Assembly: GCF_020544405.1 (NCBI RefSeq)
Contig: NZ_CP065410.1
Location: forward strand, 1 to 64,000
Direction of reading: 5' to 3'
DNA length: 64,000 nt
DNA from: Pseudomonas sp. IAC-BECa141
GTDB lineage: Bacteria; Pseudomonadota; Gammaproteobacteria; Pseudomonadales; Pseudomonadaceae
The notes beneath the pieces were generated by a model. It was not told the origin of the DNA. It worked only from the letters and a program-made list of their open reading frames with translations, and ran no database searches. Position 1 is the first letter of the stretch. Each line of letters begins with the position of its first letter. This document shows positions 21,882 to 29,837 of the stretch, one piece after another. The position numbers were made by a program, and so were the translations under genes.

Positions 21882-22439
21882 ATGGTCAACAGTTGGCGTG
21901 TGCAACAAGCCGCACGAGAGATTCGCGCCGGGGCGGTGATTGCCTATCCAACCGAAGCCGTCTGGGGGCTGGGGTGCGATCCTTGGAATGAAGAAGCGGT
22001 GGATCGTCTGTTGGCGATCAAGAACCGTTCGGTGGACAAGGGCTTGATCCTGGTCGCCGACAACATTCGTCAGTTCGATTTTCTGTTCGAGGATTTCCCC
22101 CAGGACTGGATCGATCGCATGGCCAGCACCTGGCCGGGGCCGAACACCTGGCTGGTGCCGCACCAGAACCTGCTGCCGGAATGGGTGACCGGAGTGCATG
22201 ACACCGTGGCATTGCGAGTCAGCGATCATCCGCAGGTGCGGGATCTGTGCTCGCTGGTGGGGCCGTTGATTTCGACGTCGGCGAATCCGCAGGGGCGGCC
22301 GGCAGCGAAAAGTCGCTTGCGGGTCGAGCAGTATTTCCGTGGTCAGGTCGATCTGGTGCTCGGCGGAGCGCTGGGCGGTCGCAAGAACCCGAGCCTGATT
22401 CGGGATCTGGCCACTGGCAATATCGTGCGCCCGGGCTGA
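21882..22439 (+). CDS. tsaC: L-threonylcarbamoyladenylate synthase (TsaC/YrdC family)
   Basis: This enzyme makes threonylcarbamoyl-AMP from threonine, bicarbonate and ATP, the first step of t6A formation at tRNA position 37. The 185-residue protein ([35 protein letters not shown]) has the conserved YrdC-fold residues, including the [10 protein letters not shown] region and the STSAN motif. It lies after dprA as in other Pseudomonas. qor, the usual next neighbour, is here displaced by an inserted five-gene cluster. Confidence 0.96.
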
Positions 22440-22462
22440 TATCACCCCTGATTAATTTCGTG

Positions 22463-22494
22463 AGTACTCCTCGGCTTTAATGGCGAGGGGTACT
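22463..22494 (+). repeat. Inverted repeat at the left edge of the inserted cluster
   Basis: AGTACTCCTCG (22463-22473) and CGAGGGGTACT (22484-22494) form an 11-bp stem with one G·U pair and a ten-base loop. It begins 24 bases after the tsaC stop. No T run follows, so it may be a weak terminator, an mRNA end signal or an operator. Downstream DNA (22500-22700) is distinctly AT-rich. Confidence 0.5.
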
Positions 22495-22710
22495 ACGCTT
22501 GCCCGCGATTTTTCCCTCATGTAGCTGTAGTTATAGTCCGGTTTTTTGTTCGATTTTTTCCCTTCTACGTCAGATGAATCCGTAAGTATTCAATTGTTGT
22601 AATTTTTCCGACGTTATTCTCAGAAGCCACACAGTGGCGATTTTTCTAAAACCATTCATTATTTCAATGCGCTCAGAAAACTTCGAAAAGTTAACGGCTG
22701 CGGAGAAGAA
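22495..22710 (+). promoter_or_regulatory. AT-rich leader and presumed promoter of the five-gene cluster
   Basis: About 215 bases with much lower GC than the flanks, containing T runs and a small inverted repeat AACTT-CGAA-AAGTT (22679-22692) just before the ribosome site GGAGAAG of the first gene. No sigma-factor or regulator site could be assigned with confidence. The position makes it the only plausible promoter region for the cluster. Confidence 0.45.
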
Positions 22711-23382
22711 ATGGATATCAGGGATTCGCAATTAACGGATTATTTTCAGGAGATTCAGACGACCTTTAAAAGGCGTCATGAAAATTATCGCATCGTTATT
22801 CTTGAAGCAGGATCGGATACACGAGAGTTTGAACGGTTTGTTTCCCGTCATTTTAGGTTGCGATTGCAACACTACATGCTGACACCCAAAGCCAGATTAC
22901 TTGAAACACGTCTGGCGATTATCTCGCGCAGTACCCACTTTTTGTTGTATCAGCACGACAGGCCCACGGCGGTATTGCGCGTGACCCCCGGGCCGTTCGA
23001 ATGGGCTTCACTGACGCAGCAGCAACTATCCCCTGCCACGACGCTGTCGCGCCATGTCGAGTTCAGCCGCTTGATCAGCCACTCGCAAACGCAGTTCCCC
23101 GTGTCGATCAACGGCCTGCTGGCGGCTGCCACGGAATGGGCGATCAAGCGGGGTTATGAAGGGGTCACCGCGCTCTGCCGATCACCGCAACGGCGATTGT
23201 TCCAGCGTTTCGGCCTGACGCCCATTACCACCGACGCCCTGCGCATCGAACAGCGCCAGCGCGGCGATTACTGGCTGCTCTCGGCTCAATGGCCGCAAAT
23301 CCTCACAGCACTTCAACAGTCTGCCCACCTGCTCGCCAACCCATTGGAGAACCCGGTTGATGAACTCGCCTCTCGGTTTTGA
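22711..23382 (+). CDS. GNAT-fold N-acyltransferase (FeeM/LuxI-like), first gene of a putative biosynthetic operon
   Basis: This 223-residue protein looks like the acyl-ACP-using branch of GNAT enzymes (FeeM N-acyl amino acid synthases, LuxI/OlsB relatives). Features are an N-terminal helix, AVLRV near 87-91, the conserved VEFSRL element (E117, R120) and a C-terminal half WAIKRGYEGVTALCRSPQRRLFQRFGL. The match is by pattern, not by a named family member. The expected role is N-acylation of an amino group with a fatty acyl chain. Its 5' end is richer in AT than the surrounding chromosome. The stop overlaps the start of the next gene by 23 bases. The substrate is unknown. Confidence 0.68.
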   Translation: MDIRDSQLTDYFQEIQTTFKRRHENYRIVILEAGSDTREFERFVSRHFRLRLQHYMLTPKARLLETRLAIISRSTHFLLYQHDRPTAVLRVTPGPFEWASLTQQQLSPATTLSRHVEFSRLISHSQTQFPVSINGLLAAATEWAIKRGYEGVTALCRSPQRRLFQRFGLTPITTDALRIEQRQRGDYWLLSAQWPQILTALQQSAHLLANPLENPVDELASRF

Positions 23383-24094
23383 ACAACAACTAAGCCTGCT
23401 CGATGAGCGAATCGAAAATACATGGGCCGATATTCTGGAAAGTTCGCGACTGATAAAAGCCATACGTGAAGGCAGTGTTTCAAAAGCCTTGTACGCGATC
23501 TACATGATCCAGACTTTTCACTACACGGCACACAATGCGCGAAATCAGGGATTGGTCGGAGTCCGACATGCGGATAATCCGGTGTATGCCAAGTTTTGCT
23601 TTGAACATGCGGCACAAGAAGTCGGCCATGAAAAAATGGCGCTGCATGATGTCATGAGTCTTGGTTTGAAGAATGAGGTGTTCGATATTCCGCCTGCACT
23701 TCCAGCTACGGATGTATTGATCGCCTACTTATACTGGATTTCCTTTACCGGTAATCCGCTACAACGGCTTGGTTATAGTTATTGGGCAGAGAACGCTTAC
23801 CAGTTCATTACTCCGTTGATTAACAGCCTGAGTGAAGTTCTGGAACTGAAGCCCGCTCAGCTGACGTTCTTCATTGCGCATTCCGACATTGATGTCGAGC
23901 ACTTCAATGAAATCAAACTCATGCTGCAACGCACCTGCAAGCGACAGGAAGACTGGGATGCGATCAGCACTGTCATGGAAACCAGCCTGCGTCTGACCGG
24001 CAACATGCTCGAGGCGGTTTATGAGCAGTTCGAGGCCTGGCAAAACGGGCTGGCGCCTCGCTATGACTTCCTTCACGCCGTGGACAACCAATGA
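23360..24094 (+). CDS. Haem-oxygenase-like diiron enzyme (HDO/TenA-PqqC superfamily)
   Basis: This 244-residue all-helical protein of the iron-containing redox enzyme family shows a ligand pattern expected for haem-oxygenase-like diiron oxidases: E87-x2-H90 (QEVGHEKM), E144 (YWAEN) and D178-x2-H181 (SDIDVEHFNE), with H174 nearby. Family members (UndA, SznF, BesC) perform N-oxygenation, oxidative decarboxylation or C-C cleavage on amino or fatty acids. Start ATG 23360 has GGAGA about ten bases upstream; a TTG precedes it directly. The overlap with the upstream acyltransferase gene suggests coupling. Which oxidation it performs cannot be told from sequence. Confidence 0.75.
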   Translation: MNSPLGFEQQLSLLDERIENTWADILESSRLIKAIREGSVSKALYAIYMIQTFHYTAHNARNQGLVGVRHADNPVYAKFCFEHAAQEVGHEKMALHDVMSLGLKNEVFDIPPALPATDVLIAYLYWISFTGNPLQRLGYSYWAENAYQFITPLINSLSEVLELKPAQLTFFIAHSDIDVEHFNEIKLMLQRTCKRQEDWDAISTVMETSLRLTGNMLEAVYEQFEAWQNGLAPRYDFLHAVDNQ

Positions 24095-24136
24095 AGTCTG
24101 GCCGCCCTTGTTCCAATCAGACGGCTGGAGGCAGAC

Positions 24137-25231
24137 ATGGCTGATTATTTCGACCGGCTCAACTACACGTTGGGGGATGAAGACACTGCACTCGAGTACG
24201 CGATCCTGCCCAGACATGCCGGGCACGTGCTGGGTATTGCCGGATGCGGCGGCCGGCTGTTGCCGTTGCTGGCCGCCGCTCCGTCACGCATGACCTGTAC
24301 CGATATCAGTGCGCCGCAACTGGCGTTCAGCCGGTTGCGTTTTGCCCTGCTGGAACAGACCGATCACGAGTCGTTCATGGCGTTCATGGGCTATCGAATG
24401 GAAAGCCTGAGGTCGCAACGCCAATCCATTTTCCAGCAACTGGTTTTACCGCCGGCGGATCGTCGCTGGTTGTTCGCGCTGTTCCAGTCCCGGCACTGGG
24501 AAGCGCCGATTTACATGGGTGCATTCGAGCAAACCTTGAAGCGGTTGGCGAGGATCACCGGACTGTTTACCGGCAAGGCTGGCCGAGGCATTTTTCATTC
24601 AAGCCGGCTTGACGAACAGACGGAATATTACCGAAACCGCTTTCCACTCAAGCGCTGGAAAGCCGTGGTCGCTTTGCTGGGGAACGCAGCAGTGCTCAAT
24701 TCGCTGCTGTACAAGGGCGCGTTTCCACCCAACAACCTGGGGATCAGTTCCCGCGCGGCGTATCTGGAAATTTTTCATACGTTGTTCACCACTCAGGTGG
24801 TCCGCGAAAGCTTTTTCCTGCAAATGCTGTTTTTCGGTGAGCTGCGTTATCCACAAGGCTTTCCGCTGGAGTGCGATCCGGCAATTTTCCAGCGGGCCCG
24901 CGAGGGAATTCAGCAGTGCGAGTTACGCGTGGTGCAGGCCGACATCCTCGACTGTGCTGCCGGGGAAACAGCCATCGATTTCGTATCGCTGTCGGACGTG
25001 CCTTCCTTCATGTCCGCAGCGGCCGGCAAGAACGTTTTACAGCGCCTGGCACCGTCCCTGTCGGAAAACGCACAGGTGGTCATGCGGGGGCATTTGCATG
25101 TGGTGCGACCCGATTGCGCAGGTTTCTGCGATATCACCCAGCAGTACCAGGCAGACATTGCGCGAGAAAAAACCCAGCTCTGGCGAGTCCAGGTCTATCG
25201 CCGTACTCCCTCTTTGCAGGTATCCCGATGA
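24137..25231 (+). CDS. DUF3419 protein, BtaA-like S-adenosylmethionine 3-amino-3-carboxypropyl transferase
   Basis: This 364-residue protein belongs to the DUF3419 family, whose characterised member BtaA moves the 3-amino-3-carboxypropyl group of S-adenosylmethionine onto diacylglycerol in betaine-lipid synthesis. The SAM-binding glycine motif GIAGCGG is at 33-39 and the acidic strand CTDIS at 54-58 (D56), with the family elements PPNNLGISSR and DFVSLSDVPSF further on. No BtaB methyltransferase is adjacent, so betaine-lipid formation is not implied; the acceptor may be a pathway intermediate. It starts 42 bases after the diiron enzyme gene, and its stop overlaps the next start (ATGA). Confidence 0.72.
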   Translation: MADYFDRLNYTLGDEDTALEYAILPRHAGHVLGIAGCGGRLLPLLAAAPSRMTCTDISAPQLAFSRLRFALLEQTDHESFMAFMGYRMESLRSQRQSIFQQLVLPPADRRWLFALFQSRHWEAPIYMGAFEQTLKRLARITGLFTGKAGRGIFHSSRLDEQTEYYRNRFPLKRWKAVVALLGNAAVLNSLLYKGAFPPNNLGISSRAAYLEIFHTLFTTQVVRESFFLQMLFFGELRYPQGFPLECDPAIFQRAREGIQQCELRVVQADILDCAAGETAIDFVSLSDVPSFMSAAAGKNVLQRLAPSLSENAQVVMRGHLHVVRPDCAGFCDITQQYQADIAREKTQLWRVQVYRRTPSLQVSR

Positions 25232-26496
25232 ACACTTTTCAACCGACCGTCAATTGGGTCAAAAACCGTGTCCGGCAAGCGCGTGACGATCAGCAGCAAT
25301 TGTTCGATGCCGGACTCAATGGTCTGAAATTGGCCAAACGTGAAGGCAAAGAGATCGAACTCGAGAGTGGCGAACGGCTGACCGAGTTTCTTTCCTGCTC
25401 TTATCTGGGACTGGAGTGTGACCCTCGCTTGATTCAAGGAGCGGTGAGCGCCTCGGAGTCCTTCGGCGTGCAGTTCGCCGCCGCACGAACCCGAGCGCTG
25501 TTGCCGCCCATGCGTGAACTGGATGAACTGCTGAACCGGATATTTCAGGGACATACAGTCACCTTCAACTCGGTGGGCAGTGCGCATCTTGGCTGTTTGC
25601 CGCTGCTCGGCTCCGGCGAGATGCCCTCGTATCCCATGCGTCGAGGCCCTTGCTGGATTGTTGACCGTGCCGCTCACGCTTCGATGCAAGTGCTGCAAGG
25701 CATTCTCTGGCAGTTCGGGCCGATCCAGCGCCGTGACTGCAGCGATATAGAACAGGTGGAGGAAGCGTGTTCAACGGCCGTCGCAGCGGGTAATACGCCC
25801 ATCATTCTGACGGACAGCATCGGCTCGATGCGCGGTGTATACCCGGTCAGTCGCCTGCTGCAACTGGCGGAGCGTTTCGACGGTTATCTCTATGCGGATG
25901 ACGCCCACGGTACCTCGATCCATGGTTTCGCCGGAGGTGGTTACGCGCTGGATGCGGCGGGTGACCGATATCGTGGCCGGTTGATACTCCTGTCATCGCT
26001 GTCCAAGGCGTTCGGTGCAACCGGCGGGGCAATCACTGTGCGCACCGAAGCCGATGCCGAAATAATTCGGCGCCATGCGTCGACCTATACGTTTGGCGGG
26101 CCACTGTCTGTTGGCGGAGTAGGCGCGGCAATTGCCTCGGGGAAAATTCATTTGTCGCCGGAGTTGGGGCAATTGCAGGTGGCGCTGTGGAAAAATATCG
26201 CCACGATCGACCGTTTGCTGGGGCCAGTGCTGGGTAATCATCACGTCGCGTCCCCCATTCGATTCGTCCGCGTCGGGGCCGAGAGAGATGCGATCAGCCT
26301 GGCGCAGCATTTGCGTCGGCAGGGCATGGCGGTCACTACCGCGCTGTTTCCGGTGGTGGCGAAGGGCGAGGCAATTTTGCGTCTGGCCATCAGCGCGAGC
26401 CACAGTCAGCGCCAGCTGGAATGTCTGGCGAACGCCGTCCGTAGCGGATTCGATGAGCTGGGTATTCGTCAGGGAAGGCGCGGCAATGAGCAATGA
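25228..26496 (+). CDS. PLP-dependent alpha-oxoamine synthase-like enzyme
   Basis: This 422-residue fold-type I PLP enzyme is of the KBL/BioF/SPT/CqsA type, which condenses an acyl thioester with an amino acid, usually losing CO2. Visible motifs are the cofactor-binding DDAHGTSIHGFAGGG and the Schiff-base lysine K260 in LLSSLSKAFGATGG. The N-terminus (MNTFQPTVNWVKNRV) carries the typical ELESGERLTEFLSCSYLGLECDPR strand. ATG 25228 overlaps the upstream stop by four bases. Given the SAM-linked neighbour, a CqsA-like reaction on SAM or a homoserine-type substrate is conceivable but unproven. A plain aminotransferase is the alternative. Confidence 0.72.
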   Translation: MNTFQPTVNWVKNRVRQARDDQQQLFDAGLNGLKLAKREGKEIELESGERLTEFLSCSYLGLECDPRLIQGAVSASESFGVQFAAARTRALLPPMRELDELLNRIFQGHTVTFNSVGSAHLGCLPLLGSGEMPSYPMRRGPCWIVDRAAHASMQVLQGILWQFGPIQRRDCSDIEQVEEACSTAVAAGNTPIILTDSIGSMRGVYPVSRLLQLAERFDGYLYADDAHGTSIHGFAGGGYALDAAGDRYRGRLILLSSLSKAFGATGGAITVRTEADAEIIRRHASTYTFGGPLSVGGVGAAIASGKIHLSPELGQLQVALWKNIATIDRLLGPVLGNHHVASPIRFVRVGAERDAISLAQHLRRQGMAVTTALFPVVAKGEAILRLAISASHSQRQLECLANAVRSGFDELGIRQGRRGNEQ

Positions 26497-27775
26497 ATCG
26501 ATAACGGATATATCGGCCGAGGCCTTCGCTCGCAAATTGGCTCACGCGCGTTCGCTGCCTTGGTTCCTTGCGTTGTATCCGCGAATCCTGGAAGTGCAGG
26601 GATTGGCCGATCAGCATCGGTTGCCGGTTCTGGCGGTGGAAGACGAGTTCGGCGGGGCCCTGTTTTCCGCGCTCGGTGATGCTTCTCATCGAGCACCGGG
26701 CGGTGGACTGACCCTGACCTCGGGAGGCAGTACCGGCAGTCGCAAACAGATCACCCATTCCTGGGCGTTCAACGCTGCAATCGTGCACTTGGGGGCACGG
26801 ATGTTCGGTGCGATGGACGAACGCCCTGAGGTGGTCATCAATTGCCTGACTGCCGGGGAAATGCAGGGAGCGTTCCAATACGCGTCAGCCATCGTCCAGC
26901 ACATTGGCGCACGCTTGTTGCCTGCCGGTTCACAAATGGGCGTGGAACGCATCGCCGAGCTGATTGAGGCACACAAGGCCGATGCGTTGATATGCACTCC
27001 CTCCTTCGCCGCCGCGTTGTTCAATCATGACGCAGCCCGGTTGGGCACCCTGAAGTGGCTTTATTACATCGGAGAACCCTGCAGTAAAACGCTGCGCGAC
27101 CAGTTGGCCCGGGACTGGCCGATGCTCAATATTCGCTCGTTGGGCTACAGCTCGACGGAGACCGGCCCCATCGGTTTTCAGTGTGCCCATCTGGAGCATG
27201 GCTTTTATCATCTGCATGCCGACGCCATGCTGCTCGAAGTGGTTGATCCTCTGACCCTGAACGCTATGGCTGAAGAGCAAACCGGTGAGTTTCTGCTGAC
27301 GCCACTGCTGTCCGATCACGTGCCGCTGTTGCGCTACCGGATCGGGGATCGTGGGCGAATCCTGCGCACAGGGACGACGTGTGCCTGTGGCAGCTCCCTG
27401 CCGGTGCTGGCGCTGGAGGGGCGGGTCGAGACTTCGATCAAACTGGGTGGCGCGCTCGTCACTCAGTCACAGGTATTGCACGTACTCCGGCAACTTTTAC
27501 CGCAGTTGCAGGCCACCGATGTCCAAGTACAGATTGAACGACAGCCCGAGGGCGCACGCATGCGTCTGGTCCTCGCTGAGGACACACTGACAGCCGACAC
27601 CCGAAGCGTCATTGAAGGTGCGTTGCAGATCGAAGGGCAGGCCAGCGGATTGCTCAGGCTGCCCGGGGTGTTGGGGCTGGAGGTGAAGCGTCTTGCCCGT
27701 CAGGAATTCGAAACCACCCTGGCTGGCAAGACGCCGTTTTTTATGACGCTGGAACAGACCCCGGCACTGTCATGA
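26486..27775 (+). CDS. PaaK/LuxE-like adenylate-forming ligase
   Basis: This 429-residue member of the ANL superfamily is close in size to phenylacetate-CoA ligases. The phosphate-binding loop LTSGGSTGSRKQITH starts at residue 76, with the later motifs GYSSTETGPIGF and YRIGDRGRI. It should activate a carboxylic acid as acyl-AMP for transfer to CoA, a carrier or an amine. No carrier protein is encoded nearby. It overlaps the previous gene by 11 bases and is the last gene of the operon, ending 23 bases from the convergent qor stop. No intrinsic terminator is evident between them. Confidence 0.72.
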   Translation: MSNESITDISAEAFARKLAHARSLPWFLALYPRILEVQGLADQHRLPVLAVEDEFGGALFSALGDASHRAPGGGLTLTSGGSTGSRKQITHSWAFNAAIVHLGARMFGAMDERPEVVINCLTAGEMQGAFQYASAIVQHIGARLLPAGSQMGVERIAELIEAHKADALICTPSFAAALFNHDAARLGTLKWLYYIGEPCSKTLRDQLARDWPMLNIRSLGYSSTETGPIGFQCAHLEHGFYHLHADAMLLEVVDPLTLNAMAEEQTGEFLLTPLLSDHVPLLRYRIGDRGRILRTGTTCACGSSLPVLALEGRVETSIKLGGALVTQSQVLHVLRQLLPQLQATDVQVQIERQPEGARMRLVLAEDTLTADTRSVIEGALQIEGQASGLLRLPGVLGLEVKRLARQEFETTLAGKTPFFMTLEQTPALS

Positions 27776-27798
27776 CGATATGCAGAGGCCATCGGCGG

Positions 27799-28776
27799 TC
27801 AGGGCAGCAGGACAGTGGAGCCCGTGGTGCGCCGCGCGGACAGCTCGGTTTGCGCTTTCGCCGCGTCAGCCAGCGGATAACGCTGGCTGATATCCACTTT
27901 CAGCTTGCCGCTGGCGATCATCCCGAACAGCTCGTCGGCCATGCGCTGCAGGTTCTCGGCGTTGTTGGCGTAGGTCGCGAGGGTCGGCCGGGTGACGTAC
28001 AACGAGCCTTTCGCCGCCAGAATCCCCAGATTCACGCCGTCCACCGCGCCCGACGCATTGCCGAAGCTCACCAACAGGCCACGGGGCGCCACGCTGTCCA
28101 GCGAGGCCAGCCAGGTGTCCTTGCCGACGCCGTCGTAGACGACCGGGACTTTTTTCCCGTCGGTCAATTCCAGCACCCGTTGGGCAACGTTTTCGTGGCT
28201 GTAGTCGATGGTTTCCCAGGCGCCATGGGCCTTGGCCAGATCGGCTTTGGCTTGCGAGCTGACGGTGCCGATCAGCTTCACGCCCAGGGCCTTGGCCCAT
28301 TGGCAGGCGAGCAAGCCGACGCCGCCGGCCGCTGCGTGGAACAAAATGGTTTCGCCACCCTTGAGTTCATAGGTCTGGCGCAGCAGGTATTGCACGGTCA
28401 GGCCCTTGAGCATCACGCCAGCGGCGGTTTCGAAGCTGATGGCGTCCGGCAGGTGCACCAGATTCGCTTCCGGCAGGACGTGGACATCGCTGTACGCGCC
28501 CAGCGGGCCGCTGCCATAAGCCACACGATCACCGACCTTGAACCGGGTGACCTCGCTGCCCACCGCCTCGACGATGCCGGCGCCTTCCGCACCTACGCCC
28601 GACGGCAAGGCCGGTGGCGTGTACAGACCGCTGCGGTAGTAGGTGTCGATGAAGTTCAGGCCGACGGCCTTGTTGCTCACGCGAACCTGCTGCGGACCGG
28701 GTTCGGCGGGTTGATAGTCAACGTACTCGAGCACTTCGGGGCCGCCGTGGGCGCGGAACTGGATTCGCTTGGCCAT
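27799..28776 (-). CDS. qor: NADPH:quinone oxidoreductase
   Basis: This is a zinc-independent MDR-family quinone reductase that uses NADPH to reduce quinones. The 325-residue protein starts MAKRIQFRAHGGPEVLEYVDYQ. It has the cofactor motif AAAGGVGLLACQWAK and the conserved GVGAEGAGIVEAVG. Start ATG 28776 is chosen over the longer frame to 28839. It is divergent from hemF, as in other Pseudomonas. Confidence 0.94.
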   Translation of the reverse strand: MAKRIQFRAHGGPEVLEYVDYQPAEPGPQQVRVSNKAVGLNFIDTYYRSGLYTPPALPSGVGAEGAGIVEAVGSEVTRFKVGDRVAYGSGPLGAYSDVHVLPEANLVHLPDAISFETAAGVMLKGLTVQYLLRQTYELKGGETILFHAAAGGVGLLACQWAKALGVKLIGTVSSQAKADLAKAHGAWETIDYSHENVAQRVLELTDGKKVPVVYDGVGKDTWLASLDSVAPRGLLVSFGNASGAVDGVNLGILAAKGSLYVTRPTLATYANNAENLQRMADELFGMIASGKLKVDISQRYPLADAAKAQTELSARRTTGSTVLLP

Positions 28777-28829
28777 CTGCCTACTCCTTGGGTGATTCGG
28801 GAAGGCCCCTATCGAACGCTCATGCTTGA

Positions 28830-29837
<1,008 letters not shown>

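Follow-up and report, generated by a model that had tools for sequence, protein, structure and literature searches.

Described systems come close, one enzyme at a time, to a five-gene operon (g1 to g5) of Pseudomonas sp. IAC-BECa141, which lies in a stretch of 64,000 nucleotides (contig NZ_CP065410.1, positions 1 to 64,000, forward strand; hereafter the window). BtaA, the betaine-lipid enzyme, is an S-adenosylmethionine (SAM):diacylglycerol 3-amino-3-carboxypropyltransferase, and to our knowledge it is the only DUF3419 protein whose function is known. FeeM-type enzymes use acyl chains on acyl carrier protein (acyl-ACP), and the fee cluster is not known to contain DUF3419 partners or haem-oxygenase-like dimetal oxidases (HDOs), whose known reactions include decarboxylation, desaturation and ring closure. 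In a 2026 review, only about a dozen HDOs are counted as functionally validated, fatty acids and amino acids are the main substrates of the characterised members, and a ligand set of the 3-His/3-carboxylate kind is described (PMC13108848). The words acyltransferase and S-adenosylmethionine do not occur in its text, and its sections 4 and 11 contain no such partners (PMC13108848).

Our analysis suggests that these families are combined here in a compact operon that would make an N-acylated metabolite, either diffusible or associated with the membrane, a reading to which we give about an even chance. The enzyme families themselves are known, and the operon and its g1-g2-g3 core are undescribed in the literature searched: the search on the operon's enzymes, mostly judged on title and abstract opening, gave no recognised description of either. 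A preliminary description of this DNA likewise knew of no characterised pathway with the combination.

The five predicted enzymes

A tight operon of five genes in one direction between tsaC and qor was confirmed. The overlaps of 23, 4 and 11 bases (g1/g2, g3/g4 and g4/g5) and the one 42-base gap (g2/g3) reported in the preliminary description are reproduced exactly by the coordinates; its starting position, 22440, falls in the region 5' of g1 and is not a gene start.

The product of g1 (22711-23382, + strand, 223 aa) is a predicted FeeM/LuxI-fold N-acyltransferase, for which an acyl-ACP donor and an amino-acid acceptor would be expected. Its structural model has a GNAT-type fold (pLDDT 74.8, moderate confidence), and in structural comparison LasI (13.9), TofI (13.5) and FeeM (PDB 2g0b, 13.3) scored highest, about one Z unit ahead of the next structure (12.3). 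This fold supports the FeeM-like acyltransferase proposed earlier, although FeeM is only 11% identical to g1 and its family match is below the Pfam cut-off. Recognizable motifs are VEFSR at 116-120, R73-S-T-H76 and R90-V-T-P-G-P95-F96-E97. The E-x-S-R motif is shared with the LuxI-type acyl-homoserine lactone (AHL) synthases, two of which, LasI and TofI, have the highest structural scores, and a LuxI-type synthase was the only PDB sequence match of g1 (E 0.028). Seven LuxI proteins, however, have a D-x-x-D stretch for which g1 shows no counterpart by eye; this comparison is purely descriptive, the seven having been picked from 8 loci (7/8) by the motifs later compared, which we take to mark LuxI proteins. 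Membership of g1 in the LuxI family was considered and is not claimed, because its matches stay below the curated sequence cut-offs.

The second gene, g2 (23360-24094, + strand, 244 aa; starting with ATG at 23360, with an alternative TTG at 23357 possible), encodes an HDO. It matched PF14518 (Haem_oxygenas_2) at E 5.4e-17 and 62.6 bits (cut-off 28.9) and PDB 3dde at E 3e-74. Six candidate metal ligands, E87, H90, E144, H174, D178 and H181, which we assign on the assumption of an UndA-type motif, are invariant in a 15-sequence alignment. The domain match and this conserved 3-His/3-carboxylate set support the haem-oxygenase-like family named in the preliminary description, and binding of two metals and oxygen activation are predicted. 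Both the family and the 3H/3C-type residues are shared with UndA, BesC, SznF, AetD, PolF and MboA, characterised HDOs treated in the review (PMC13108848).

The 364-aa product of g3 (24137-25231, + strand) is a DUF3419 protein with a class I SAM-binding core and a long helical insertion. DUF3419 matched residues 4-354 with 79.2 bits (cut-off 28.2), whereas methyltransferase families fell below their cut-offs. The DUF3419 domain and the SAM-binding core are also those of BtaA. However, BtaA-like DUF3419 proteins, which we take to be BtaA, have 403-423 aa and are 24-33% identical to g3 over partial length. No solved structure was similar to g3 by sequence, no BtaB-type methyltransferase partner was found among the five genes, and a g3 search of 369 class and 398 phylum genomes yielded no other member of the operon clade (best E 1.8e-17, 27% identity). 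A further DUF3419 group (360-425 aa; loci L025, L026, L028, L033 and L034), which carries a 'RYAQCWEDAD' motif, was by eye unlike both the BtaA-like and the operon clades.

The last two genes encode an alpha-oxoamine synthase of the PRK07505 subfamily (g4, 25228-26496, + strand, 422 aa) and a PaaK-like adenylate-forming ligase (g5, 26486-27775, + strand, 429 aa), as had been proposed. Model NF005697 matched g4 with 387 bits (cut-off 342), and the SLSKAFG and DxAHG motifs, the basis for assigning K260 as the pyridoxal phosphate lysine, are present in 15/15 copies. The AMP-binding domain PF00501 matched g5 at E 4.2e-11 and 42.7 bits (cut-off 29.9), and the PaaK-like ligases 6siw and AjiA1 in the PDB matched at E 1e-17 to 2e-17; all specific ligase models were far below cut-off. 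The ATP-binding motifs of g5 are TSGGSTG at 78 and STETG at 223 (15/15 copies each) and YRIGD at 284 and AGKTP at 413 (14/15 each). Plasmid relatives of the oxoamine synthase (144 records, four regions read) gave no explanation for g4; in the four regions their neighbour is either an asparagine synthase or a transporter of the MFS type. Enterobacterial plasmids (L080, L081) carry a two-gene cassette of an MFS transporter and an oxoamine synthase that shares 39-41% identity with g4; one of these plasmids, from E. coli, measures 6.7 kb and has just two other annotated genes.

Insertion between tsaC and qor in Pseudomonas

Genomes without the operon nearly always have qor right behind tsaC, which makes it an insertion, always found at this one fixed site. 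Among 25 such genomes tsaC was located in 24, and qor followed directly in 23 of these, at 2-305 bases between aligned ends; in the remaining one, qor was not seen behind tsaC within the stretch examined. The preliminary description, which had stated that the two genes are adjacent in other Pseudomonas, was correct for 23/24. In the window, tsaC (21882-22439) directly precedes the operon and qor (27799-28839, - strand) follows g5 convergently. The five genes also occur together elsewhere, a point on which the earlier proposal had hinged: the order dprA-tsaC-g1-g2-g3-g4-g5-qor-hemF-aroE is kept in 14/14 related loci from named Pseudomonas genomes. With the source genome counted, g2 of the operon type (at least 86% identity) was present in 15 of 348 sampled Pseudomonas genomes, all 15 of which carry tsaC-g1-g2-g3-g4 in the stretch retrieved (g5 lies beyond the stretch end), and g3 in 8 of 144 sampled relatives. 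The 15-genome and 14-locus sets overlap, with four members apparently common to both. The insertion is possibly old and often lost.

All five genes are under purifying selection, with dN/dS well below 1. Median values over the 14 loci were 0.19 (g1), 0.06 (g2), 0.16 (g3), 0.08 (g4) and 0.17 (g5), compared with 0.05 for tsaC; these ratios are rough because median dS was 0.7-1.3. Distances of the operon and of its flanking genes correlate across 15 copies (r 0.68, 0/9999 permutations), so within this Pseudomonas group the operon has mostly been passed on in place, and at the protein level it has diverged about 3-fold more than the flanks (0.17 vs 0.05). One record, P0164 from Pseudomonas sp. H22_DOA, holds a 362-aa protein made of a g1-related piece and a full g2, which may be a naturally fused protein or reflect a frameshift in the deposited sequence.

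The g1-g2-g3 core and other HDO clusters

Outside Pseudomonas the recurring unit is g1-g2-g3, accompanied by other tailoring genes, and it was found in three lineages overall. On a 42.7 kb plasmid of Deefgea piscis, relatives of g1 (31% identity over 158 residues), g2 (55%) and g3 (47%) are consecutive; behind them come speD, a gene with a monooxygenase annotation and one for a serine hydrolase of the beta-lactamase fold. About 10 kb from this core, sbnA and sbnB (L023:22696-24676), genes for 2,3-diaminopropionate synthesis, are a possible amine source. In G1143, a genome from another family of Pseudomonadales, g1-, g2- and g3-like genes occur in the same order (25% over 153 residues, 56% and 41% identity), with an FMN-binding-domain gene inserted between the first two. 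Its flanks hold an aspartyl/asparaginyl hydroxylase, an unassigned 402-aa protein and a serine hydrolase that shares 32% identity with the Deefgea one. The G1143 g2 is by eye nearly identical to P0220, listed from Zooshikella, and the genome may belong to that genus. The coherent biosynthetic operon of the preliminary description stands in Pseudomonas; in the two outside regions read, the first three genes recur and no g4 or g5 relative was found.

Many further records seem to hold g2 and g3 relatives on one contig. Among the matches listed, Lysobacter, Xylella, Chitiniphilus, Glaciimonas and the myxobacterium Corallococcus have both, and Flavobacterium has a g3 relative. Taking equal contig size as a proxy for a shared contig, we compared the longest contigs of 94 non-Pseudomonas DUF3419 clusters with those of 104 HDO clusters: 21 of the 94 had an exact match in size, compared with 0.46 (at most 4) when contig sizes were jittered by up to 5%. 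The test was based on 120 of 134 DUF3419 and 120 of 203 HDO matches; of the 96 DUF3419 rows listed after the Pseudomonas ones, 94 were used (P0081 and P0109 were left out as fragments, with 73-76% identity), as were 104 HDO rows after 16 Pseudomonas-like ones had been set aside. The named shared-contig records are from Pseudomonadota, plus one from Archangium. Over 22 pairs (the 21 shared-size pairs and that of the window), g2 and g3 distances correlate (r 0.76, 0/9999 permutations). No relative of g2 or g3 was found among viral contigs.

Beyond this core, an HDO beside an acyl- or amide-forming enzyme is a recurring pair. Profile searches with g2 gave the source genome and G1143 at E 1e-25 among 279 genomes of the order, and 28 of 369 class genomes at E <=1e-10, source genome counted. 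BLAST with known partner proteins found none in 28 short stretches around other HDOs of the class and missed at least one, since the FeeM domain in L052 was overlooked by BLAST and detected by Pfam; L051 and L052 were the stretches read by open reading frame (ORF). On a plasmid of Agarilytica, a distant HDO has a FeeM-family protein beside it (E 1.6e-8, over cut-off); in G235 the neighbour is a fusion of a FeeM domain (over cut-off) with a cyclic-nucleotide-binding domain; a FeeM-like protein is one gene away from an HDO in G973 (E 1.1e-4, below cut-off), and a GH3-type ligase adjoins an HDO in G178. In L153 (7457-9321), the HDO is directly followed by such a FeeM fusion, which suggests an acyltransferase under cyclic-nucleotide control.

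A second Pseudomonas cluster type combines a PaaK ligase, a 181-aa GNAT-like protein, an HDO and a flavodoxin (L048, L099-L112, L149, L150 and L154). An HDO 32-38% identical to g2 occurs in 23 of 348 Pseudomonas genomes, and of the 15 whose loci were examined, 14 have these partners beside an HDO of 35-38% identity, the fifteenth being G973. The HDO of this cluster is also present on 23 Pseudomonas plasmid records, on one of which the whole cluster was read. Like the operon, the copy on a P. syringae pv. actinidiae plasmid (L048) has a GNAT-like gene together with genes for an HDO and a PaaK ligase, which share 36% identity with g2 and 26% with g5, respectively; unlike the operon, this cluster type has neither DUF3419 nor oxoamine synthase genes, and where read it includes a flavodoxin, an EamA transporter, a hydrolase, anthranilate synthase genes and LuxR. 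Its 181-aa protein reaches no family cut-off and is tied to FeeM solely via 30% identity to the Agarilytica protein. When ORFs were scanned, a LuxR with an autoinducer-binding domain was found near three of four such regions and a LuxI homologue in the fourth. A literature search on the P. syringae cluster found no description of it. It is possible that HDOs beside amide-forming enzymes act on acyl-amino-acid amides.

Proposed pathway and alternatives

The small acylated product suggested in the preliminary description is plausible. Most likely it would be a derivative of an N-acylated amino acid that the HDO oxidises and g4 and g5 extend; an aminocarboxypropyl unit from SAM may be part of it. 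In such a pathway g3 would move the 3-amino-3-carboxypropyl group from SAM onto a nucleophile, releasing methylthioadenosine; g1 would N-acylate the g3 product or another amino acid from acyl-ACP; and g2 would oxidise the acylated amino acid by decarboxylation, desaturation or ring closure. The ligase g5 might activate a carboxylic acid, which g4 would condense with an amino acid, with loss of CO2, to an aminoketone. In this scheme g1 and g3 would represent the two half-reactions of LuxI spread over two proteins. We tentatively extend it to g1-g2-g3 as the core of an undescribed, horizontally shared pathway family, in which N-acylation and SAM aminocarboxypropyl donation are split over two proteins, a diiron oxidase reshapes the acylated amino acid and tailoring is lineage-specific, a generalisation that we consider possible but doubtful.

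Several observations weigh against the N-acylated metabolite. We infer the substrates and products of all five enzymes from families, folds and motifs, and the five genes include neither a carrier protein nor an exporter or regulator, as the preliminary description had already noted. For g1, RpaI (11.9) and EsaI (11.6) compared with the model no better than general GNATs, and Foldseek placed general GNAT proteins first, FeeM tenth and an AHL synthase eleventh. In family scans of 35 g1 relatives, FeeM (best E 0.0021, 7/35) and Autoind_synth (best E 0.037, 15/35) stayed below curated cut-offs, and CtIP_N, unrelated by description, matched 14/35 at E 0.041, a result similar to that for LuxI; when the g1 family was compared with seven LuxI proteins by hhalign there was no match, with a shallow alignment (Neff 1.7) that is weak either way. 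Two of the 14 loci have an altered-looking g2, with Q at the H90 position in L013 and one stop sign inside the aligned stretch in L012, which may speak against a universal function. The shared-contig records concern g2 and g3, and the concordance of their distances may partly reflect host relatedness. Separately, the nearest solved folds to the SAM-binding core of g3 are ordinary methyltransferases, and g3 could be one, giving a methylated acyl-amino compound without the aminocarboxypropyl unit. We consider this quite unlikely, as DUF3419 covers most of g3 over its cut-off where methyltransferase families fail, although BtaA supplies the only DUF3419 function we know of. The distance of g3 from the other DUF3419 proteins compared (20-33% identity) leaves room for another acceptor and even for transfer of another group; of the BtaA-like aminocarboxypropyl enzyme proposed earlier, the family and the SAM-binding core thus stand, and the activity is tentative.

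A membrane aminolipid pathway is somewhat unlikely. Here g1 would make an N-(3-hydroxyacyl) amino acid, g3 would attach homoserine to the hydroxyl of that product through an ether bond, in the way that BtaA acts on diacylglycerol, and the remaining enzymes would modify the head group or chain. The place of BtaA within DUF3419, the acyl-ACP use of FeeM-type enzymes and the aspartyl/asparaginyl hydroxylase family member in the G1143 cluster, a family that includes lipid hydroxylases, are in keeping with it; yet g3 is distant from the longer, BtaA-like proteins, a methyltransferase partner is missing from the five genes, and we know of no role for an oxoamine synthase or PaaK ligase in known aminolipid pathways. 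The product might instead be a quorum-type signal with its receptor encoded elsewhere, as the LuxI-like fold of the g1 model, the LuxR and LuxI genes near the related PaaK-type regions and the lack of a LuxI-family match in the source genome could suggest. This is unlikely, since no receptor gene is in or beside the operon, and the LuxR regulators belong to the other cluster type, where they may merely control expression. Finally, g1-g3 and g4-g5 could be two unrelated modules sharing a promoter: in the regions read from Deefgea and G1143 the core has no g4 or g5 relative next to it, which also counts against a single five-gene pathway, and the g4 relatives on plasmids keep the other company described above. 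However, g3 overlaps g4, g4 overlaps g5 and the five-gene order is invariant in the 14 loci, and we regard separate modules as no likelier than a methyltransferase g3.

The recurring acyltransferase-HDO-DUF3419 core is a small cloneable target that may yield a new HDO reaction, a DUF3419 role outside betaine lipids and a new acylated product; because the operon sits in Pseudomonas as a clean insertion, insertion-free relatives are natural comparators. The expected site of its promoter is the AT-rich region 5' of g1 (22440-22710, 271 bases, no strand), with a GC content of 41% compared with 61% for the whole window. A consensus promoter scan of 22300-27900 gave no site on the + strand and one promoter-like site on the - strand (shuffle mean 2.5). 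A second, distant HDO-like gene, 24% identical, is present in the same genome (G000:C1:3659050-3659625).

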